Shown one piece after another: positions 47,389-57,721 of a stretch of DNA of 60,970 bases. The stretch comes from Bacteroidetes bacterium GWF2_40_14 (lineage in GTDB: Bacteria > Bacteroidota > Bacteroidia > Bacteroidales > UBA932): assembly GCA_001769195.1 (NCBI GenBank), contig MEOK01000027.1, forward strand, positions 6,164-67,133. Reading direction: 5' to 3'. The first letter of the stretch is position 1, and every line of letters begins with the position of its first letter. The notes beneath the pieces are model-generated. The model did no database searches. It saw only the letters and a program-made list of their open reading frames with translations, and was not told the DNA's origin. The position numbers and the translations under genes were made by a program.

Positions 47389-49386
47389 CTAATTCTCAGC
47401 CTTGGCCCTTAAGCTGTCCCAGATGAGATAACCGATAATTACAATATACATGCCTAAAGCAAGCAAAACGGCAGGAGAGGACTCCATCCATTCAGGACTT
47501 GTAAGGTTGACTCCTCCGAATCTGATCAATGCACTTACTACACCCATCAATGCACCACCGGCAATAAATCCGGAAGCCAGAAGTGTTCCTCTCTCCTTGC
47601 GTGCTGTATTGAGAGACTCATCCTTGCTGCGGGTAGAGACGAACCATGCGATTGCACCACCAACCAGTAACGGAAGGTTAAGCTCAAGAGGAATGAACAT
47701 ACCAAGAGAGAATGCCAATGCAGGAACTCCGAAAAGTGTGAGGAATATAGATATTACGGCACCGATTCCGTAAAGCAGCCAAGGTGCACCGCCACCGGAC
47801 ATAAGTGGTTCAATTACAGCAGCCATTGCATTTGCCTGAGGAGCTACAAGAGCATGTTCCCCAACGAATCCGTATGTCTTGTTCAGAATTATCATAACAC
47901 CGCCAACTGTTGCAGCAGCCACAAGGGTTCCCAGGAACTTCCATGACTGTTGTTTTGCAGGGGTCGAACCAAGCCAGTAACCTATCTTGAGGTCTGTAAT
48001 AAAAGCTCCGGACATAGAAAGTGCAGTGCAGACCACACTTCCTATAATCAAAGCTGCTGTCATACCTGCTGTACCTTTAAGACCGCTGGCTACCATAACA
48101 ACCGATGCAAGTATAAGTGTCATAAGGGTCATTCCGCTTACAGGGTTTGTCCCTACAATTGCGATTGCATTTGCGGCCACGGTTGTAAACAGAAATGCGA
48201 TTACTCCCACTACAACAAGTGCTATAATTGCGTGATAAAGATTGTTCACCACTCCAAAGTAGAAGAACACAAAGGTTGCCGCCATCGCCACTAAAATACC
48301 TATAGCAATGATTTTCATAGGTATATCTCTCTGAGTTCTCAATGTAGATTTGTTAGGATCGGTATTTCCTTTAAGTTCCTTTGCTGCAAGACCAAAGGCA
48401 GATTTGATAATTCCGGCAGAGCGGATAATTCCAATCACACCTGCTGTAGCGATACCACCAATACCTATATGTCTGGCATATGTTCTGAATATCATTTCCG
48501 GTGACATGCTTCCTATTGTCTGAGCCAGACCTGTATTCATAAGGTCAATAACCTGTGCACCAAAGATAAGATTCATCAGAGGAATGATTACAAACCATAC
48601 AAGCATAGAGCCACAGGCAATAATAAATGCATATTTCAACCCAACAATGTATCCAAGACCCAGAACCGCAGCTCCGACATTTATCTTGACAACCATTTTG
48701 GCTTTCTCTGCAATGACCTCACCATAAGGAAGTACCCTTGTTGTGAAGACCTCCGACCACCATCCGAATGTAGATACAATAAAGTCATATAAACCTCCAA
48801 TAAGACCGCTTACGAGCAGAAGCTTAGCTCCTGTGCCACCGGTCTCTCCGCTTACCAGGACCTGGGTTGTTGCTGTAGCCTCAGGGAAAGGATACTTCCC
48901 GTGCATATCGGAAACAAAATATTTTCTGAATGGAATGAGAAACAAGATACCTAAAACACCTCCGAGCAGAGAGCTCATGAACACCTTTGCAAAGTCTACT
49001 GTAAGCTCAGGATACTTTGCCTGAAGGATATAAAGTGCAGGCAGAGTGAAGATTGCTCCTGCAACGATTGCTCCGGAACATGCTCCAATAGACTGGATGA
49101 TTACATTCTCTCCAAGTGCGTTTTTCCTTTTAAGTGCGCCTGACACTCCAACGGCGATTATCGCTATCGGAATTGCTGCTTCAAACACCTGTCCAACCTT
49201 CAATCCAAGATAAGCTGCCGCGGCAGAAAAAATAATTGTCATAAGTACCCCCATTGATACCGACCAGACACTAACCTCCGGGTAGTTTTTTGAGGGTGAC
49301 ATAATGGGCTTGTACTCTTCGCCTTGCTTCAGTTCGCGATACGCATTTTCCGGTAAACCTTTTGGTTTGCTGTTCTCTGTTTCCAT
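47389..49386 (-). CDS. OPT-family oligopeptide transporter
   Basis: Inner-membrane transporter of 665 residues with about 16 helices. OPT marks are VSVWSVSMGVLMTIIFSAAAAYLGLKVGQVFEAAIPIAII, here the core AAAAYLGLKVGQVFEA, PFPEATATTQVL and IFLTLFGVPALAFSLGMFIPLELN, core GMFIPLELNLPLLVGG. Members import oligopeptides or metal chelates. The gene is divergent from the arginine operon and its predicted promoter is 20 bases upstream. Confidence 0.93.
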   Translation of the reverse strand: METENSKPKGLPENAYRELKQGEEYKPIMSPSKNYPEVSVWSVSMGVLMTIIFSAAAAYLGLKVGQVFEAAIPIAIIAVGVSGALKRKNALGENVIIQSIGACSGAIVAGAIFTLPALYILQAKYPELTVDFAKVFMSSLLGGVLGILFLIPFRKYFVSDMHGKYPFPEATATTQVLVSGETGGTGAKLLLVSGLIGGLYDFIVSTFGWWSEVFTTRVLPYGEVIAEKAKMVVKINVGAAVLGLGYIVGLKYAFIIACGSMLVWFVIIPLMNLIFGAQVIDLMNTGLAQTIGSMSPEMIFRTYARHIGIGGIATAGVIGIIRSAGIIKSAFGLAAKELKGNTDPNKSTLRTQRDIPMKIIAIGILVAMAATFVFFYFGVVNNLYHAIIALVVVGVIAFLFTTVAANAIAIVGTNPVSGMTLMTLILASVVMVASGLKGTAGMTAALIIGSVVCTALSMSGAFITDLKIGYWLGSTPAKQQSWKFLGTLVAAATVGGVMIILNKTYGFVGEHALVAPQANAMAAVIEPLMSGGGAPWLLYGIGAVISIFLTLFGVPALAFSLGMFIPLELNLPLLVGGAIAWFVSTRSKDESLNTARKERGTLLASGFIAGGALMGVVSALIRFGGVNLTSPEWMESSPAVLLALGMYIVIIGYLIWDSLRAKAEN

Positions 49387-49436: not shown

Positions 49437-49444
49437 TACCTTTG
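49437..49444 (+). promoter_or_regulatory. -7 element TACCTTTG for the arginine operon
   Basis: Perfect TAnnTTTG on the plus strand, 8 bases before the leader ORF at 49453. Start of transcription is expected at about 49448, so the leader would be almost leaderless. No -33 TTTG at the right distance. Confidence 0.5.
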
Positions 49445-49452
49445 CCGCTACA

Positions 49453-49518
49453 ATGAATCAAACAAACTGCAATATCAACTTCAACCGTAAACACAGACAC
49501 GTCCGACGATGCGTCTGA
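49453..49518 (+). CDS. Candidate arginine leader peptide
   Basis: ORF of 21 codons upstream of the arginine operon and outside any known gene. The last ten residues read RKHRHVRRCV with four Arg codons (CGT, AGA, CGA, CGA), including a tandem CGA CGA. The codons lie within the hairpin 49494-49517 and just ahead of a T7 run. The ATG is within a few bases of the predicted transcription start. This is the layout of an attenuation leader peptide. Chance Arg richness in a 21-codon ORF cannot be excluded from one sequence. Confidence 0.45.
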   Translation: MNQTNCNINFNRKHRHVRRCV

Positions 49519-49533
49519 GAAGGCAGTTTTTTT
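49464..49533 (+). terminator. Attenuator-like hairpin with T-run in arg leader
   Basis: Outer arms AAACTGC (49464-49470) and GCAGTTT (49523-49529) form a perfect 7-bp stem that runs into T7 at 49527-49533. Inside, 49494-49517 folds as CAGAC-a-CGTC / GATG-c-GTCTG with a CGAC loop, holding the Arg codons. The 85 bases after the T-run contain two weaker stems (TGATCT/AGATCA at 49535-49551; GCAGG/CCTGC at 49559-49577) whose GCAG/CTGC segments could compete with the outer stem. Confidence 0.45.
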
Positions 49534-49618
49534 CTGATCTTTCTTAGATCAATTTCACGCAGGTAGTGTACCCCTGCAAAAATCAATCACATACTAACAA
49601 TTTTACTGTTTATTAAAA

Positions 49619-50236
49619 ATGGATGTAACCATTTGTGTGGCTAATATTAGTCATGTAAAGTATGCAGAGCGTATCTGCGAACTGGTATATATTTCGGCAC
49701 AGGAGAGAGGCACCGGAATTGCGACAAGGTCTCCTGAATACATTGCTGAGAAGATGATTGCCGGCAAGGCGGTCATTGCTCTGGATGGCGACGAGGTAGC
49801 CGGCTTTTCATATATTGAGACCTGGAGCCACAGCAAGTTTGTGGCAAACTCAGGTTTGATAATTGCCCACGATTACCGACATTCGGGGCTGGCAAGAAGG
49901 GTAAAAGCTAAGATATTCGAGCATTCCAGAAAACTATATCCCGATGCTAAAATCTTCAGCATCACAACTGGTCTGGCTGTAATGAAGCTTAATACCGAAC
50001 TCGGTTTTAAGCCTGTTACGTTTTCTGAACTGACAGACGACAAGGATTTCTGGAAGGGTTGCGAAGGATGTAAGAACTTTGACATACTCCAAAGAAACAA
50101 CCATAAAATGTGCCTATGCACAGGTTTGCTGTATGATCCGGCAGAGGTAGCAAAAGAGAAGAATCTTCTAAGCAGGTCGAACCCTATTCTTGCTACTGTT
50201 GGGAAAATCAATTCAATAATATCGTTTAAAAAATAG
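49619..50236 (+). CDS. GNAT N-acylglutamate synthase (likely N-succinylglutamate synthase)
   Basis: First committed step of arginine synthesis: acylation of glutamate, in this lineage probably with succinyl-CoA. The protein has 205 residues with a GNAT fold: the CoA-binding loop is DYRHSGLARRVKAKIF (residues ~85-100) and MKLNTELGFKPV follows. The last third has a Cys cluster, C148-x2-C151 and C165-x-C167 (FWKGCEGC, HKMCLCTG), suggesting a metal site. It is first in the arg operon, which supports the role. It is not a classical ArgA (no kinase-like domain). Assignment rests on operon context plus recall that Bacteroides uses a GNAT protein here. Confidence 0.75.
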   Translation: MDVTICVANISHVKYAERICELVYISAQERGTGIATRSPEYIAEKMIAGKAVIALDGDEVAGFSYIETWSHSKFVANSGLIIAHDYRHSGLARRVKAKIFEHSRKLYPDAKIFSITTGLAVMKLNTELGFKPVTFSELTDDKDFWKGCEGCKNFDILQRNNHKMCLCTGLLYDPAEVAKEKNLLSRSNPILATVGKINSIISFKK

Positions 50237-50246
50237 TGTATAAGAG

Positions 50247-51437
50247 ATGAAAAAGAAAGTAGTATTGGCATTCAGCGGAGGCTTGGACACATCATTCTGT
50301 GTTCCGTATTTGAAAATTGAAAAGGATCTCGAAGTACATACTGTTGTTGTAAACACAGGCGGCTTTACAGCAGAAGAGGAGAAGAAGATAGAGGAAAGGG
50401 CACTTACACTGGGTGCTGCCTCACACACTTGTATCAATGCAGTTGAGGAGTATTATAAGAAGGGGATCAAGTATCTTCTTTTCGGAAACATACTCAAGAA
50501 CTCTACATATCCACTTTCAGTAAGTTCAGAAAGGATCTTTCAGGCGCTTGAGGTTCTTAAAGTTGTAAAGGAGCTAAATGCAGAATTCGTTGCGCACGGC
50601 AGCACCGGTGCCGGGAACGACCAGGTACGGTTTGACCTTGTTTTTGAAGTTATGGCACCCGAAGTGGGCGTTATTGCCCCAATAAGGGAACTTGCTCTCT
50701 CTAGGAAAGATGAGATAGATTATCTGAACAAACACGGCTTCGACTTCTCATGGGAGAAGGCTAAGTATTCTATAAATCAGGGTATTTGGGGAACCAGCAT
50801 AGGAGGTGTGGAGACACTGAGCTCCTCGGGGGTACTTCCGGAAGAGGCCTATCCCTCTAAAGTGACCAAAACAAATCCCGAAAGAGTTAAAATAGGTTTT
50901 GAAAAGGGCGAACCATGTTCACTCAATGGCGAGAAGATGGATCCTGTGTCACTTATTCACAAGCTTAATGCAATTGCATCGGCCTTTGGAGCAGGCAGAG
51001 ATATCCATGTGGGAGATACCATTATAGGAATAAAGGGGAGAGTGGGCTTTGAGGCATCAGCTCCGCTTATTTTGGTAAAGGCACATCATCTTCTTGAAAA
51101 ACACACTCTTACAAAGGGACAGCTCTACTGGAAGGAGCAGCTTGCCGGATGGTACGGACAACTTATGCACGAGGCTCAGTATCTCGATCCACTGATGAGA
51201 AATATCGAGGTCTTTTTAGATGACACACAGACATCGGTTTGCGGTGTGGTTGAGGTGGAACTTCGGCCATATCATTTTGCGGTCTTAGGTTGCGAAAGCC
51301 CTTACGATCTTATGAACTCTAAGTTCGGAGATTATGGTGAGGCTAATAAATCTTTCACCGGACAAGATGTGATTGGCTTTACCAAGGTTTTGGCTAATCC
51401 GTTGAAAATTTACTATTCTGTACATAAAAATGATTAA
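50247..51437 (+). CDS. argG: Argininosuccinate synthase
   Basis: Condenses citrulline and aspartate with ATP to argininosuccinate, 396 residues. The PP-motif reads VLAFSGGLDTSFCVPYL; HGSTGAGNDQVRFDL, SINQGIWGTSIGG and FEASAPLILVKAHHLLEKHTL are conserved stretches. Length is as usual. Starts 10 bases after the acyltransferase and ends overlapping argC by eight bases. Cytoplasmic, in the arginine pathway. Confidence 0.96.
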   Translation: MKKKVVLAFSGGLDTSFCVPYLKIEKDLEVHTVVVNTGGFTAEEEKKIEERALTLGAASHTCINAVEEYYKKGIKYLLFGNILKNSTYPLSVSSERIFQALEVLKVVKELNAEFVAHGSTGAGNDQVRFDLVFEVMAPEVGVIAPIRELALSRKDEIDYLNKHGFDFSWEKAKYSINQGIWGTSIGGVETLSSSGVLPEEAYPSKVTKTNPERVKIGFEKGEPCSLNGEKMDPVSLIHKLNAIASAFGAGRDIHVGDTIIGIKGRVGFEASAPLILVKAHHLLEKHTLTKGQLYWKEQLAGWYGQLMHEAQYLDPLMRNIEVFLDDTQTSVCGVVEVELRPYHFAVLGCESPYDLMNSKFGDYGEANKSFTGQDVIGFTKVLANPLKIYYSVHKND

Positions 51438-52422
51438 GGTTGCGGTGGCCGGAGGGACGGGCTATACTGCCGGAGAACTCCTCAGAATTCTGATAAATCA
51501 TCCTCATACCGAGGTCGTGTCGGTCTACAGCACCAGTTCTGTGGGAGCATTGGTATCCTCGGCGCACAGAGATCTTTTGGGAGATACAGATCTTAGATTT
51601 TCCGGCAACACAGAGTTCGAAAATGTCAAGAGTAGTCTTGATGTGCTTTTTCTGTGCCTCGGACACGGTCTTTCAAAAAAGTTTCTGGACGATTTCAAGA
51701 TTTCGGCCAAATGCAAAGTGATTGACCTTGGAAACGACTTTCGTCTTGAGAGCAGGTACAACCATTCGGAATTTGTATATGGTCTTAGCGAGTTCAACAA
51801 GAAAGAGATAGAATCGGCAAATCAGATAGCAAATCCCGGGTGCTTTGCAACAGCTATCCTGCTGGGGCTTTCACCACTGGCATTGAAAGGAGCTCTTACA
51901 GATGACATTCATATTCATGCCCTTACAGGTTCCACCGGAGCAGGAAAGTCGCCATCTGAGAGCACCCATTTCAGTTACAGGAGCTCTAATATATCGGTAT
52001 ACAAACCCTTTACACATCAGCATATTGGGGAGATCGAAAAGACTCTTGCATATATGATGGGCTCCAAGGCCCCCGTAATTAATTTTGTTCCTATGAGGGG
52101 TGACTTTGCAAGGGGGATATTTGCCAGCATATATACAAAATGTTCAGACGACACATCGCTTGAGGATATGCGGGAATACTTCAGACAAACATACAGCAAC
52201 TCTCCTTTTGTATTTGTATCTGACGAGAGTATATCTCTTAAAGAGGTTGTTAACACAAACAAGGCACTGTTACATATCGAAAAGCACAACGGTTACTGGC
52301 ATTTAACAGTTATTATAGATAATTTAATCAAAGGCGCTTCAGGTCAGGCTGTCCAGAACATGAATATCATGTGCGGTTTTGAGGAGAATTGCGGACTTAA
52401 GCTTAAAGGGAACGCTTTCTAA
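51430..52422 (+). CDS. argC: N-acyl-gamma-glutamyl-phosphate reductase
   Basis: Reduces N-acylglutamyl phosphate to the semialdehyde with NADPH; here the acyl group is probably succinyl. 330 residues, with Rossmann motif VAVAGGTGYTAGELLR at the N-terminus and catalytic Cys138 in NPGCFATA, followed by TGSTGAGKSPSESTHFSYRS and FVPMRGDFARGIFASIY. The start overlaps the argG stop by eight bases, implying coupled translation. Confidence 0.95.
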   Translation: MIKVAVAGGTGYTAGELLRILINHPHTEVVSVYSTSSVGALVSSAHRDLLGDTDLRFSGNTEFENVKSSLDVLFLCLGHGLSKKFLDDFKISAKCKVIDLGNDFRLESRYNHSEFVYGLSEFNKKEIESANQIANPGCFATAILLGLSPLALKGALTDDIHIHALTGSTGAGKSPSESTHFSYRSSNISVYKPFTHQHIGEIEKTLAYMMGSKAPVINFVPMRGDFARGIFASIYTKCSDDTSLEDMREYFRQTYSNSPFVFVSDESISLKEVVNTNKALLHIEKHNGYWHLTVIIDNLIKGASGQAVQNMNIMCGFEENCGLKLKGNAF

Positions 52423-52453
52423 AAATTTACATGAAAATTAACAAAGTAATTCA

Positions 52454-53593
52454 ATGAAGAATTTTGAAGTATATAAACTCTGGCCCATTGAGCCTGTAAA
52501 AGCCAAAGGGTGTAAAGTTTGGGACAAGAATGGCACAGAGTATCTCGACCTTTACGGTGGCCATGCAGTTATCTCAATAGGACACGGACATCCGGTTTAT
52601 AATGATATGATAAAAGAACAACTTGAGAAGATATGTTTCTACTCAAACTCGGTTCAAAATTCTCTGCAGGAGGAACTGGCAGAGAGGCTCGGAAGGGTGA
52701 GCGGTTATCCCGACTACTCCCTGTTCCTTTGTAATTCAGGGGCCGAGGCAAACGAAAATGCACTCAAACTTGCATCGTTCAGTAACGGAAAGAAGAGGGT
52801 CATAGCATTCGAAGGAGCATTTCATGGAAGGACCTCCGGTGCGGTTGCAGTAACAGATAACAAGAACATTGTAAGCCCGTTCAACTCAGGACACGAGGTT
52901 ACGTTTGTTCCTCTTAATAACCTGGACGCTGTTGAGAAGGAGCTTGCGAAAGATGATTGCGCAGCAGTAATAATAGAAGGAATTCAGGGAGTTGCGGGTA
53001 TATATATGCCAACTGATAAGTTTCTGCAAGGATTAAGGGAACTGACAATCAAGTACGGTGTTGCTCTTATCCTGGACGAGGTCCAATCCGGTTACTGCCG
53101 TTCTGGAAAATTCTTTGCACACCAACACTCAGGAATAAAGCCCGATATTATTACCACTGCAAAAGGAATGGGGAACGGATTTCCTATTGGCGGGGTACTT
53201 ATATCTCCATCATTCAAACCAAAACAGGGTATGCTCGGGACAACATTTGGAGGAAATCACCTGGCTTGCACAGCTGCAATAGCTGTACTTAAGGTAATTG
53301 AAGAAGAGTCCCTCATCAATAAAGCAGCAGAATTTGGAGAGTACATAATCTCTGAATTGAACAAGATTAAGTCCGGTACAGGTTCAAAAGCAATTGCAGA
53401 TATCAGGGGTATTGGCCTTATGATTGGTATAGAGATGGAAAGCGATTTTATAAAAGTCAGGGATAAACTGTTGTTTGAGGACAAGATTTTTACCGGAGGG
53501 GCAAAATCAAATATTATAAGACTTTTACCTCCTTTGACAATCACCAGGGGAGAGATTGACCATTTTTTAACATGCTTTAAAAAATCAATTTAA
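52454..53593 (+). CDS. argD: N-acylornithine aminotransferase
   Basis: PLP transaminase that turns the N-acyl semialdehyde into N-acylornithine using glutamate. 379 residues, class III aminotransferase: LYGGHAVISIGHGHP, NSGAEANENALKLA, AFHGRTSGAVAVT, LILDEVQSGYCRSGKFFA and the PLP Lys in TAKGMGNGFPIGG. Starts 31 bases after argC. It may also act in lysine synthesis, as ArgD enzymes do. Confidence 0.95.
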   Translation: MKNFEVYKLWPIEPVKAKGCKVWDKNGTEYLDLYGGHAVISIGHGHPVYNDMIKEQLEKICFYSNSVQNSLQEELAERLGRVSGYPDYSLFLCNSGAEANENALKLASFSNGKKRVIAFEGAFHGRTSGAVAVTDNKNIVSPFNSGHEVTFVPLNNLDAVEKELAKDDCAAVIIEGIQGVAGIYMPTDKFLQGLRELTIKYGVALILDEVQSGYCRSGKFFAHQHSGIKPDIITTAKGMGNGFPIGGVLISPSFKPKQGMLGTTFGGNHLACTAAIAVLKVIEEESLINKAAEFGEYIISELNKIKSGTGSKAIADIRGIGLMIGIEMESDFIKVRDKLLFEDKIFTGGAKSNIIRLLPPLTITRGEIDHFLTCFKKSI

Positions 53594-53599
53594 CTACCG

Positions 53600-54553
53600 A
53601 TGAAAAAATTTACGTGTGTACAAGATGCAGGTCCTTTGGACATAGCACTTGCAATGGCCGCGGAGGTAAAGGCAAATCCTTTTGCCGACAGCCATCTGGG
53701 GAAAAACAAGACCCTGCTGATGATATTCTTCGATTCAAGCCTGAGGACAAGACTAAGTACTCAAAAGGCTGCTATGAATCTGGGTATGAATGTTATTGTG
53801 CTGGATATCAATCAGGGTGCATGGAAGCTTGAAACAGAGAAGGGTGTGATTATGGACGGAGACAAATCTGAACATATTCTTGAGGCAATTCCTGTGATGG
53901 CTTCATACTGCAACATTATAGGCGTCCGCTCATTTGCAAGATTCGAGAGCAAGGCAAACGATTACAATGAGGTAATACTTAGTCAGTTTATCAAATATTC
54001 AGGAAAGCCTGTATTTAGCATGGAGGCGGCCACCCGCCATCCGCTTCAGAGCTTTGCCGACCTTATCACTATAGAAGAGTATAAAACTGTTGCAAGACCA
54101 AAGGTTCTCCTTACATGGGCACCCCATCCAAAGGCTCTTCCGCAGGCAGTTCCCAACTCTTTTGCAGAGTGGATGAATGAAACAGATTACGAATTCGTGA
54201 TTACTCATCCAAAAGGGTATGAACTTTCTCCCGATTTTGTAAAGAATGCAAAGGTGGAGTATGATATAGAAGCCGCCTATAAGGGAGCAGATTTCGTATA
54301 TGCAAAGAACTGGTCGGTATTCAGTGATCCCAATTATGGTCAGATATTGAACATCGACAGAAGCTGGATGGTCGATTCCAGGAAGATGCAACTCACCAAC
54401 AATGCCAAATTCATGCACTGTCTTCCGGTGAGAAGGAACATGATTGTGAGCGATGAGGTTATCGATGGTCCTGACTCAATAGTGGTACAAGAGGCTGCAA
54501 ACAGGGTAGTTTCTGCACAGGTTGTGTTGAGAGAGATGTTAAAGACACTTTAA
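53600..54553 (+). CDS. argF': N-succinylornithine carbamoyltransferase (SOTCase)
   Basis: Transfers carbamoyl to N-succinylornithine, giving N-succinylcitrulline; 317 residues. It aligns without gaps in the first ~100 residues to the Bacteroides fragilis SOTCase as recalled (MKKFTCVQD, SLRTRLSTQKAA, VIVLDINQGAWKLET, VIMDGDK). Carbamoyl-phosphate site SLRTR (~47-51) and HCLPVRRN are present. Residue 90 is Ser (GDKSEH) where the B. fragilis enzyme has Pro and N-acetylornithine carbamoyltransferases have Glu. Ser still fits the succinyl type. Gap to argD is six bases. Confidence 0.92.
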   Translation: MKKFTCVQDAGPLDIALAMAAEVKANPFADSHLGKNKTLLMIFFDSSLRTRLSTQKAAMNLGMNVIVLDINQGAWKLETEKGVIMDGDKSEHILEAIPVMASYCNIIGVRSFARFESKANDYNEVILSQFIKYSGKPVFSMEAATRHPLQSFADLITIEEYKTVARPKVLLTWAPHPKALPQAVPNSFAEWMNETDYEFVITHPKGYELSPDFVKNAKVEYDIEAAYKGADFVYAKNWSVFSDPNYGQILNIDRSWMVDSRKMQLTNNAKFMHCLPVRRNMIVSDEVIDGPDSIVVQEAANRVVSAQVVLREMLKTL

Positions 54554-54577
54554 TATAACGTATTTATATAAAAGATT

Positions 54578-55351
54578 ATGAAGGAGTTGACTGTTATAAA
54601 AATTGGTGGGAACATAGTTGACCAGCCTGCGGCACTTGAAGAGTTTCTTAAGGCCTTCAGTAAGTATCCTGCACCAAAAATCCTGATTCATGGTGGAGGG
54701 GTAATGGCAAGTGAGCTTTCAGCTAAAATGGGTATAGAGGTAAAGATGCAAAATGGCAGAAGAGTAACCGATCTGGATACGCTCAAATTGGTCACTATGG
54801 TTTATGCGGGTTGGATAAATAAAAGCATTGTGGCCATATTGCAAAAGCTTGGGTGTAACGCAATAGGACTTTCAGGTGCCGATGGAGATCTTGTACCTGC
54901 AACAAGAAGATCACCTGAGCCGGTTGATTTTGGCTATGTGGGTGATGTGAATCCAGTAGACATCAACTCTTCACTGCTTGAGAGTCTGCTGGGAAGAGGA
55001 ATAACTCCAGTGTTTTGTGCAATTACACACGACAGGAACGGTTCCCTGTTAAATACCAATGCCGACACTATGGCATCAAGTCTGGCAATTGCCCTTTCAA
55101 GTGATTTCTATACAAGGCTCATCTATTGCTTCGAAAAAGAGGGGGTACTTTACGACCAGGAGAATCCGGATTCGGTTGTACCACTAATTACAAGGGCCAA
55201 CTATCAGACAATGAAAGATAACGGAGCAATTACCGGTGGAATGCTACCTAAGCTTGATAACGCATTTGCAGCAATTGAGAGCGGAGTATCTGAGGTTTGC
55301 ATCAAGCATGCATCAAATCTGGGCAACAACAAAGGGACAGTTTTAAGGTAA
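54578..55351 (+). CDS. argB: N-acylglutamate kinase
   Basis: Phosphorylates the gamma carboxyl of N-acylglutamate (probably N-succinylglutamate), 257 residues of the amino-acid-kinase fold. Motifs: VIKIGGNIVDQP, ILIHGGGVMASELSAKMG, GRRVTDLDTLKLVTMVYAG, VGDVNPVDI and ITGGMLPKLDNAFAAI. It lacks the long N-terminal helix that confers arginine feedback on some ArgB proteins, so control may fall on transcription. Confidence 0.94.
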   Translation: MKELTVIKIGGNIVDQPAALEEFLKAFSKYPAPKILIHGGGVMASELSAKMGIEVKMQNGRRVTDLDTLKLVTMVYAGWINKSIVAILQKLGCNAIGLSGADGDLVPATRRSPEPVDFGYVGDVNPVDINSSLLESLLGRGITPVFCAITHDRNGSLLNTNADTMASSLAIALSSDFYTRLIYCFEKEGVLYDQENPDSVVPLITRANYQTMKDNGAITGGMLPKLDNAFAAIESGVSEVCIKHASNLGNNKGTVLR

Positions 55352-55357
55352 AGGTTA

Positions 55358-56422
55358 ATGAAGATAGAAGAGAAATATTTTTCTGATGCAGAGGCACTTC
55401 TTCACAAGTTGGTACGAATTGTATCATATTCGGGAGAGGAGAACATGGCAGCTCAGTTTGTTTTCAATTATCTGTCAGATAAGGGGACAGACTGTGTAAA
55501 AGTAAAAAACAATGTAATTGCATATTCGAGGGATTTCAAACCTTCCAGACCAACCCTTATGCTCAACTCTCATCTGGATACGGTAAAAGCAGGAAGCGGC
55601 TATACTTTTGACCCGCTTAACCCTCCGCTTTCCGATGACAGAATATTGGGTCTGGGCAGCAATGATGCCGGTGGGTCAGTTGTTTCAATGATTGAGACCT
55701 TTCTCTATTTCAACAACCACCCTGTTTCCTTCAACATCCTTCTCGTTCTCTCTGCGGAGGAGGAGAATTCCGGAAAAAACGGAATGGATATTGTGTTGAA
55801 GAAAACTCCTGAAATAGCCTGTGCAATTGTAGGCGAGCCTACAGGTATGCGCGTTGCCGTTGCCGAGAGGGGTCTTCTGGTTGTTGATGCGATAGCCAGA
55901 GGGAAAAGCGGCCATGCGGCCAGAGGAGAAGGAGAGAATGCCATTTATACAGCAATAGAAGACATAAACTGGATAAGAGGTTATAAGTTCCCTCTTATAT
56001 CAGATTTAATGGGAGAGGTAAGGGCCACAGTAACACAGATAGAGGCAGGAGTTCAGCACAATGTTGTTCCTGACGCCTGTAAATTTGTAATAGATATCAG
56101 ACCTACGGACCAATATACAAATCCGCAGATTATGGAGATTTTGAAATCACACATGAAATGTGACCTTAAGGCAAGATCTCTTACAAATAAAAGTTCTTCA
56201 ATACATGCCGGCCATCCTTTAGTCAAAACGGCAGATCTTCTGGAGATAGAGAAATATGTCTCTCCAACAACATCGGACTGGATGCGTCTGTCATTACCGG
56301 CAATAAAAATGGGCCCGGGCGAATCTTCAAGGTCACACAGGTCAGATGAGTATATTTTCAAAAGTGAGGTCAGACAAGGGGTAGAGGGATACATAAATTT
56401 TGTCAAAAAACTTGAGTTATAG
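55358..56422 (+). CDS. argE: N-acyl-citrulline/ornithine deacylase (ArgE-type M20)
   Basis: Zinc hydrolase of 354 residues that removes the acyl group; after a SOTCase the substrate is probably N-succinylcitrulline. M20 metal motifs are MLNSHLDTVKAG (His, Asp), GLGSNDAGGSV, LSAEEENSGKNGMD (catalytic Glu-Glu) and IVGEPTGMRVAVAERG; the dimerization domain follows from ~170. It starts seven bases after argB. Its acyl specificity should match succinyl rather than acetyl. Confidence 0.9.
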   Translation: MKIEEKYFSDAEALLHKLVRIVSYSGEENMAAQFVFNYLSDKGTDCVKVKNNVIAYSRDFKPSRPTLMLNSHLDTVKAGSGYTFDPLNPPLSDDRILGLGSNDAGGSVVSMIETFLYFNNHPVSFNILLVLSAEEENSGKNGMDIVLKKTPEIACAIVGEPTGMRVAVAERGLLVVDAIARGKSGHAARGEGENAIYTAIEDINWIRGYKFPLISDLMGEVRATVTQIEAGVQHNVVPDACKFVIDIRPTDQYTNPQIMEILKSHMKCDLKARSLTNKSSSIHAGHPLVKTADLLEIEKYVSPTTSDWMRLSLPAIKMGPGESSRSHRSDEYIFKSEVRQGVEGYINFVKKLEL

Positions 56423-56425
56423 ATT

Positions 56426-57721
56426 ATGAGCAAATTATGGGAAAAGGGAGTAGAAGCAAATAAGCTGGTAGATGATTTTACCGTGGGCCGCGACAGGGAG
56501 CTGGACATAAGAATGGCAAAGTACGACATTCTTGGTTCGGTGGCCCATATAACCATGCTGGAGAGCATAGGACTTATAACATCGGAAGAGTTTACTTTAC
56601 TAAAAAACGAACTGTCAGTTTTGCTGAAAGAGGCAGAGAAGGGCAATTTTTCAATAGATGATGACGTTGAGGATATTCATTCTCAGGTAGAACTATGCCT
56701 CACTAAGGTTCTCGGAGAGACAGGCAAGAGGATTCACTCGGGCAGGTCGAGAAATGACCAGGTGCTTGTAGATATAAAGCTCTTTTTGCGCGATGAGATA
56801 CTGGTTTTCAAGGAGGAGATTATCTCTCTATTCGATCTTCTGCAGAATCTAAGCGAGGAGTACAAAGATGTCCTTATGCCTGGATATACTCACGGACAGA
56901 TAGCCATGCCCTCATCATTCGGATTATGGTTCGGAGCGTATGCAGAGACCCTGATTGATGATATATATTCACTGACAGCAGCATGGAACGTAGTAAATCA
57001 AAACCCTTTAGGTTCGGCAGCCGGTTATGGTAGCTCTTTTCCTCTCGACAGAGATATGACCACCACTCTTCTGGAATTTAAAAGCATGAACTACAATTCT
57101 ATCTCTGCGCAGTTAAGCAGAGGCAAGTCCGAAAAGGTTGTCGCTAATGCACTCTCTTCGCTGGCATCTACACTCAACAAGCTAGCATCCGACTGTACGA
57201 TGTACATGTGCGGCAACTTTGGATTCATCTCTTTCCCGGATGAGCTTACAACTGGTTCCAGCATAATGCCTCATAAGAAAAACCCAGATGTGTGGGAGTT
57301 GATAAGGGCAAATTGTAACCGTATCCAGAACACTCCAAATGAGATATCACTGCTCTGCACCAACCTCCCTCACGGGTATCACAGGGATTTTCAGCTGCTA
57401 AAGGACATTCTTTTCCCAACAATTGAGAGGATGCACAACTCAGTTCATATGACTATGCTAATGTTATCCAATATCAGAATCAACAAAAACATACTGGATG
57501 ATTCAAAATATGACTATCTTTTTACAGTAGAAGAGGTTAACAAGCTTGTTCTGGACGGGGTCCCTTTCCGTGATGCATACAAGAGGGTAGGGAAAGAGGT
57601 GATGGAGGGTAGGTTCATTGCAAAAAAAGAGGTTGCCCACACTCACAAGGGGAGTATAGGCTACCTGTGTACTTCTGAAATCAAGGCCAAAATGGATTCG
57701 GCCCTTAATCAGTTAAAATAG
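56426..57721 (+). CDS. argH: Argininosuccinate lyase
   Basis: Last step of arginine synthesis: cleaves argininosuccinate to arginine and fumarate. 431 residues of the fumarase/aspartase superfamily with signature GSSIMPHKKNPD, SGRSRNDQVLVDIKLFLRD and the TPGYTHGQIAMPSS-like MPGYTHGQIAMPSS. It is last in the arg operon; its stop is two bases from the converging YeiH stop, with no room for a separate terminator between them. Confidence 0.95.
   Translation: MSKLWEKGVEANKLVDDFTVGRDRELDIRMAKYDILGSVAHITMLESIGLITSEEFTLLKNELSVLLKEAEKGNFSIDDDVEDIHSQVELCLTKVLGETGKRIHSGRSRNDQVLVDIKLFLRDEILVFKEEIISLFDLLQNLSEEYKDVLMPGYTHGQIAMPSSFGLWFGAYAETLIDDIYSLTAAWNVVNQNPLGSAAGYGSSFPLDRDMTTTLLEFKSMNYNSISAQLSRGKSEKVVANALSSLASTLNKLASDCTMYMCGNFGFISFPDELTTGSSIMPHKKNPDVWELIRANCNRIQNTPNEISLLCTNLPHGYHRDFQLLKDILFPTIERMHNSVHMTMLMLSNIRINKNILDDSKYDYLFTVEEVNKLVLDGVPFRDAYKRVGKEVMEGRFIAKKEVAHTHKGSIGYLCTSEIKAKMDSALNQLK

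Follow-up and report, generated by a model that had tools for sequence, protein, structure and literature searches.

Candidate arginine attenuation without a canonical terminator: a conserved Arg-rich leader ORF before the arg operon of a Bacteroidales bacterium

How a bacterium might match arginine synthesis to arginine supply when the repressor ArgR has no counterpart in its genome is the question raised by a stretch of 60,970 nucleotides from Bacteroidetes bacterium GWF2_40_14, referred to below as the window. It carries an operon of eight arg genes preceded by a short ORF that ends in arginine codons, and the genome to which it belongs (97.5% complete) gave no match to ArgR (PF01316) at E ≤ 0.001. 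A first-pass annotation of the DNA had proposed an arginine attenuator at this site, and the positions that it gave for a −7 box, the ORF, a hairpin, an outer stem and a run of seven T were confirmed on the sequence. From comparison with related genomes we consider it fairly probable that the leader acts in arginine-sensing, ribosome-mediated attenuation, using rare CGA codons and no canonical terminator.

The arg operon and the elements that precede it

The operon and the features of its leader lie on the forward strand and are listed here in order.

49437–49444 (+): −7 promoter box TACCTTTG, from the sequence
49453–49518 (+): leader ORF of 21 codons, MNQTNCNINFNRKHRHVRRCV and stop, ending KHRHVRRCV
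49464–49470 (+): P1 5′ arm AAACTGC, leader codons 4–6, from covariation
49494–49517 (+): P2, hairpin across the Arg codons, from folding
49501–49509 (+): putative sensor codons GTC-CGA-CGA (Val-Arg-Arg), with in-frame NTC-CGA in the leaders of the family
49523–49529 (+): P1 3′ arm GCAGTTT, 4 nt past the leader stop, from covariation
49527–49533 (+): T7 run, not kept in relatives
49535–49551 (+): P3, small hairpin after P1, replaced by a different hairpin in several genus members
49559–49577 (+): P4, hairpin GCAGG..CCTGC, ending 41 nt before argA′ and present in part of the genus only
49619–57721 (+): eight-gene arg operon, from profile matches and sequence
49619–50236 (+): argA′-like GNAT N-acetyltransferase, first gene of the operon, passing the Pfam GNAT cut-off
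50247–57721 (+): argG, argC, argD-like, N-acylornithine carbamoyltransferase-like, argB, argE-like deacylase and argH

The box TACCTTTG presumably belongs to the TAnnTTTG promoter type of the Bacteroidota. An OPT transporter gene (47389–49386) lies on the opposite strand, and the arg operon reads away from it. NCBIfam cut-offs are passed by argG, argC, argB and argH; for the argD-like, N-acylornithine carbamoyltransferase-like, argE-like and GNAT genes the assignments are the best matches, with scores below the cut-off, and it is from its operon context that we infer the ArgA′ role of the first-gene acetyltransferase. The nearest named relative found is Bacteroidales bacterium CF, with 81% identity across the first operon protein. 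No Rfam family matched within the window at gathering scores, and the 21-residue leader peptide, a very short query, had no Pfam match at E up to 1.

The annotation had also remarked that ArgB lacks the extra N-terminal helix that serves allosteric control in some enzymes, and the protein (54578–55351) indeed has no long N-terminal extension: it has 257 residues and starts near the first kinase strand. Feedback inhibition is doubtful for ArgB proteins without a long N-terminal extension, and it is on this ground doubtful at the ArgB step here. As a separate observation, many draft assemblies, mostly of genus g14, have contigs that end 100–400 nt 5′ of argA′, as if a repeat were located there (loci L147, L178, L181, L205, L207, L213, L225, L226, L228, L229 and L233).

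Conservation of the leader, its arginine codons and the argR slot

ArgA′ was searched for in 199 genomes of the family and matched in 141, from which 130 upstream regions were obtained by removing 11 genomes with ArgR and three fragmentary cases and adding three second copies; three of the 130 regions derive from the two remaining ArgR genomes (G084 twice, G195) and have no leader. A strict rule required the first ATG to come no more than 24 nt from the beginning of TAnnTTTG and to open an ORF of 6–40 codons that contains two or more Arg and lies over 90 nt ahead of argA′; it finds a leader in 85 of the 130 regions. Admitting GTG starts while requiring the motif NTCCG adds seven more, making 92/130, and the reverse complements give 0/130. 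Every one of the 20 regions from the genus of the window has a leader. In a count that uses only the first ATG after TAnnTTTG, 75 of the 87 short ORFs that precede argA′ carry at least two Arg among their last eight residues, compared with 6 of 38 after other −7 boxes (80 loci). The distance from box to ATG is held at 13–18 nt across the 85 rule-found leaders, so that the transcript, if it begins at the usual place, would be nearly leaderless.

The peptides themselves diverge strongly and have the arginine end in common, as in NFNHRHVRRCA, IAIRRVRR, NKILQILRIRRRA, TTGIRVRRGSSAASVLVRI, LFVRR and RRVRS, and the leaders of Petrimonas and Proteiniphilum end in LVRRCF or similar. Neither rule detects a leader in 38 of the 130 family regions, including all 10 from genus g9 and 11 of 12 from genus g19, and five of the 38 (G029, G031, G161, G183 and G189) have one by eye. 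The GTG-start leaders of genus g4 (L184, L185, L218, L224 and L232) have VRL or VRS ends, keep NTC-CGA and have 1–3 Arg left.

Outside the order, a phylum sample with 84 matched genomes supplied 29 loci (L244–L272) besides the window's own. A short ORF before argA′ with RR in its last six residues is present at 17 of these 29 loci and at 5 of 29 in the reverse-complement control, with ends such as PTRRRP and RIPRRR. Leaders of the Gelidibacter and Psychroflexus type place an RRP-like cluster within a GCCC..GGG hairpin, which is followed by a conserved block like GAACTTAGGTGAGTCCGGTTC and then by argA′ (RRP-type loci L086, L110, L244, L246, L248, L250, L254, L256 and L260).

Judged by these comparisons, the Arg-rich leader ORF is a genuine feature and has been conserved. 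It is a short ORF between promoter and operon that is rich in codons for the amino acid that the operon produces, which is the arrangement by which leader-peptide attenuation is recognized. The annotation had suggested an arginine leader peptide able to sense arginine by stalling, and had named loss of the ORF or stems in relatives as a finding that would speak against it; the ORF, its place just past the promoter, the Arg codons and the outer stem are all conserved, and the suggestion is to that extent supported. When the combined pattern of box, ATG and motif was run over 25 genus genomes, it returned 52 matches, arg leaders included, against 128 for the reversed pattern, and for this reason no second site is claimed.

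The choice of arginine codon is as distinctive as their number. Over the final 12 residues of the 85 leaders, CGA is the commonest Arg codon (144 of 273, 53%), and in 40 genes of the window it is the rarest (27 of 639, 4%). It follows NTC in frame in 82 of the 85 leaders, which were found by a strict rule that made no use of NTC-CGA, and in the window genes only 2 of the 27 CGA codons are preceded by NTC. The preference for GTC or ATC before CGA seems stronger than the amino acid requires, and NTC-CGA may, as a guess, be a slow codon pair; the in-frame motif also provides a handle with which the leaders of the family can be searched for. Codon rarity itself is to be read with caution, since frequent Arg codons in place of rare ones kept regulation by Salmonella orf34 according to the accessible part of that work (PMC6386406). 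Attenuator theory, as far as the accessible text of its treatment goes, does not hold that the rarest codon is simply the best, and rare control codons were proposed there for the leu attenuator and not as a general rule (PMC1183508).

The position of the leader gains meaning from the distribution of ArgR. Within the family, 13 of 199 genomes have an ArgR match. In a sample of the order, ArgR occurs in 54 of the 66 genomes with ArgA′, and in 48 of these 54 argR is found no more than 2.5 kb 5′ of argA′ and on its strand, in 45 of them within 700 nt. Across a phylum sample of 198 genomes, ArgA′ is found in 84 and ArgR in 72, and by reading of the two lists only two genomes stand on both, with weak ArgR matches. 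The mutual exclusion of leader and ArgR is not strict: both are present in Petrimonas and in one Proteiniphilum, among nine genomes reached via named records, and the ArgR-less genera g9 and g19 have leaders in 0/10 and 1/12 regions. This pattern suggests that repressor and leader peptide can stand in for each other in a single genomic position, with a switch between them that could be traced across the phylum, and it makes the leader a candidate for the missing regulator of arginine synthesis in Bacteroidota without ArgR.

RNA structure and terminators

Folded by itself, the window leader is hardly better than chance (z −1.43, with 14 of 200 shuffles as good). In leaders of the window type, P1 pairs codons 3–8 of the ORF with the sequence directly 3′ of its stop. 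For 16 such leaders, left from 19 sequences after identical arms were dropped and near-identical ones kept, the arms pair with their own partners at −10.2 kcal/mol versus −6.7 kcal/mol when crossed, a difference reached in 0 of 20000 permutations, uncorrected for kinship. A scan of segment pairs over 21 leaders places P1 as the best of 539 (z −6.84), the next unrelated pair reaching −2.98. In a separate set of 11 leaders from other genera, in which the P1 3′ arm has an Arg cluster on either side, the same helix is the best of 227 pairs (z −3.97) and is equalled in 2 of 20000 permutations, again uncorrected for kinship. RNAalifold on a MAFFT alignment did not recover P1 and showed no two-sided change in any pair; a slight displacement of the 3′ arm between leaders may be the reason. 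With one leader from each of 15 genera, own and crossed P1 arms were not clearly apart (median p 0.19), and when 82 leaders were set against the arms of other genera in loose windows the median rank of the own arm was 0.40.

The inner hairpin P2 had been described as a 10-bp hairpin; the hairpin is present at 49494–49517 and consists of nine pairs and one A·C mismatch instead of ten perfect pairs. Across 19 aligned leaders its 5-bp core is intact in 93 of 95 cells, all changes being one-sided. The leader ORF with the 45 nt that follow folds better than its shuffles (mean z −1.50 over 85 leaders, with 15 of 16 genera below zero), while the rest of the leader is hardly better than shuffled sequence (z −0.40 over 74).

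Several further pairings were considered and set aside. Pairings of the P1 3′ arm with the start of argA′ or with other downstream segments amount to noise in the scan, an ACTGTTT block near argA′ having seemed complementary by eye. A 2:3 pairing in the two-cluster leaders reached z −3.10 in the scan and was matched by 5399 of 20000 permutations with a wider window. No competing helix that could free the P1 3′ arm as an antiterminator would stands out, the best other pair of the 21-leader scan being that at z −2.98. Two structural observations belong to other genera. In g14 leaders the stop is directly followed by a hairpin whose loop, TTTCAGC, is conserved, and there is a second hairpin with the loop CAGCAGAA; these loops are partly complementary, which makes kissing loops possible (such double hairpins occur, e.g., at L197, L198, L202, L204, L226 and L233, plus L049). 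Leaders of g22, g6 and g2 share a conserved element close to TTGCAATTGACAATCnnGGTTTGTCTTGCCrTTAGG on the 5′ side of argA′ (L111, L170, L172, L174, L175, L177, L220, L221, L235, L237 and L102).

Terminators were scored with what we take to be the formula of the d'Aubenton-Carafa score. A pattern scan of the window called no terminator, and with hairpins of up to 95 nt none of the 20 arg leaders of the genus scores above 0. The window leader, at −3.7, is the best of the genus because of its T7, three of whose seven T are already part of the P1 3′ arm; among 18 other aligned leaders the longest T runs are 6 T (G180) and 5 T (G174). Across the family, 5 of 85 arg leaders score above 0 with hairpins up to 95 nt, all of them in other genera; at a limit of 45 nt the count is 2 of 85, and five g14 leaders come near the threshold (−2.3 to −5.1). 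As a control, the same formula was applied to the 200 nt that precede hisG, with hairpins limited to 45 nt. HisG is present in 22 of 25 genus genomes, of which G152 was excluded as fragments, and the 21 full loci all combine a His-run ORF (HHHH) with a strong canonical terminator, scoring +32 to +80. In the genome of the window the hisG leader encodes VSFLANTNVLHHHHLHSH..., followed by GGGCTTACC..GGTAGGCCC and T8; it lies about 180 nt 5′ of hisG (L273, on G000:C8) and, with L274–L293, represents a classical his attenuator in Bacteroidales.

An intrinsic terminator as a conserved feature of the arg leader was rejected on the d-scores at both 45 and 95 nt. The annotation had the outer stem flowing into T7: both the stem and the run exist, and the terminator that their combination implies finds no support, as the run is not conserved and no genus leader reaches a positive score. 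The comparative evidence sets both ORF and outer stem apart from chance and leaves the T-run unsupported as a conserved part. From 21/21 his leaders with terminators against 0/20 arg leaders, it can be argued that these bacteria appear to employ classical attenuation for his and not for arg. As one leader has a terminator and the other does not, the his and arg leaders of a single genome make a natural pair for studying how leader peptides work where intrinsic termination is lacking; in these bacteria translation and Rho may not be the same as in E. coli.

Proposed mechanism and comparison with known systems

The comparisons show a conserved ORF, with its codons, its position and, subject to the caveats above, P1, in a genome with no ArgR match and no conserved terminator; from these we infer stalling, the direction of the response and the output. 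Transcription would start at the leader ATG or a few bases before it, as judged from the promoter, and a ribosome would load on the leader at once. Were charged tRNA-Arg short, the ribosome would wait at the CGA codons close to the ORF's 3′ end, where it would sit inside P1/P2 and reach into the sequence past the stop; P1 could then not close, and the operon would be expressed. With ample arginine the ribosome would proceed to the stop and leave, P1/P2 would close and expression would be reduced, probably by something other than a canonical intrinsic terminator. The dependence of P1 on ribosome position is suggested by geometry. As output we would first choose early termination assisted by Rho or by pausing on the untranslated stretch before argA′, and in second place mRNA decay as in Salmonella orf34-speF or an effect on translation.

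A post-transcriptional output in the manner of orf34-speF, with ribosome position setting an mRNA conformation that governs decay or argA′ translation, we regard as rather unlikely. It has its precedent in Salmonella, as far as the accessible text describes it (PMC6386406), and would suit the lack of a canonical terminator and the small hairpins between leader and argA′ that are kept within several genera, but no covarying pairing with the start of argA′ stands out, and two of the three g25 leaders (G060 and G043) have little beyond P1/P2 and an A/T-rich stretch. That P1/P2 and T7 form a classical intrinsic terminator, held open by the stalled ribosome, appears distinctly unlikely. The stem that runs into T7 in the window, its genus-best score and the handful of family leaders above or near the threshold are what would be expected of it; against this stand the loss of the T-run in relatives and the uniform gap in score between the arg and his leaders of the genus.

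The remaining readings concern what is sensed. With the fungal arginine attenuator peptide, free arginine is sensed inside the tunnel of the ribosome and the nascent chain arrests. By analogy, the [V/I/L]-R near the C-terminus of most family leaders could serve in the same way, yet the peptides otherwise diverge, the conservation of NTC-CGA and of a rare codon at the nucleotide level exceeds what the residues need, and leaders from beyond the order have the endings RRP or IPRRR, so that we hold nascent-chain arrest to be very unlikely. Such nucleotide conservation, and the near-palindromic core of GTCCGACGA, could alternatively mark a DNA operator or an RNA motif for a regulator, to which the ORF would be incidental. 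This seems the most improbable of all, as the motif is in frame in nearly all the leaders and has further Arg codons around it, and as the reading frame with its start and stop persists through changes of sequence and position. Ribosome-mediated sensing at the CGA codons, with P1 as the responsive structure, is the reading that we prefer to carry forward. A broader version of it strikes us as evenly balanced between right and wrong: that Bacteroidota without ArgR, and a few with it, have widespread, fast-evolving leader peptides in the argR slot, and that those of the window's family use the rarest Arg codon as sensor and a single helix spanning the leader, without terminator or antiterminator, giving an output unlike that of the his attenuator.

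The annotation had thought the use of leader-peptide attenuation for arg new in this phylum. Novelty for the phylum is too strong a claim for leader-peptide control as such, which is not new in principle in the Bacteroidota, given Bacteroid-trp, Flavobacterium psychrophilum and the His leader of the same genome; no arg leader was named in the literature searched. Bacteroid-trp RNA holds a Trp leader ORF and is named for trp, whereas the leader described here precedes an arg operon, and its model (RF01692) has no match in the window genome. In the accessible part of its description it is a cis-regulatory RNA of Bacteroidetes (PMC2864571). For F. psychrophilum, the accessible text describes hints of attenuation by leader peptides ahead of amino-acid operons (PMC9723704), and for B. 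thetaiotaomicron short ORFs reminiscent of leader peptides, with arginine unmentioned in that text (PMC7366714). Leader-gene distances were compared across many phyla in a study whose accessible part does not treat arginine (PMC4833913). In the accessible literature we found no arg leader from this phylum, nor the CGA signature, the exchange with argR or the absence of a terminator; subscription journals and supplements lay beyond reach, and the F. psychrophilum supplement may list arg.

Among established systems, the his, trp and leu attenuators of Proteobacteria, and likewise the hisG leader of the same genome, resemble the arg leader in placing an ORF with codons for the product before a biosynthetic operon and in using a stall at control codons as the signal. 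They differ from it in structure: in the arg leader one long-range helix stands out and no antiterminator is established, and the strong terminator of the his leaders is missing. ArgR has the same presumed task and, in relatives, the same slot 5′ of argA′, but it is a DNA-binding protein, and the window genome gave no match to it. The proven example of Arg-codon sensing that comes closest is orf34-speF, where, in the accessible part of the Salmonella study, consecutive Arg codons 12–13 sense arginine through ribosome pausing, a hairpin 3′ of the stop codon matters, and the output runs through Rho, RNase G and the speF ribosome-binding site (PMC6386406). As described there, orf34/SpeFL of Salmonella and other gammaproteobacteria shares with the arg leader an ORF with Arg codons and structure near the stop. 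It differs in controlling ornithine decarboxylase, where the arg leader precedes genes of arginine synthesis and not speF, and in being much longer, with a peptide domain of its own (PF10940; PMC6386406) in contrast to the 21-residue peptide of the window.
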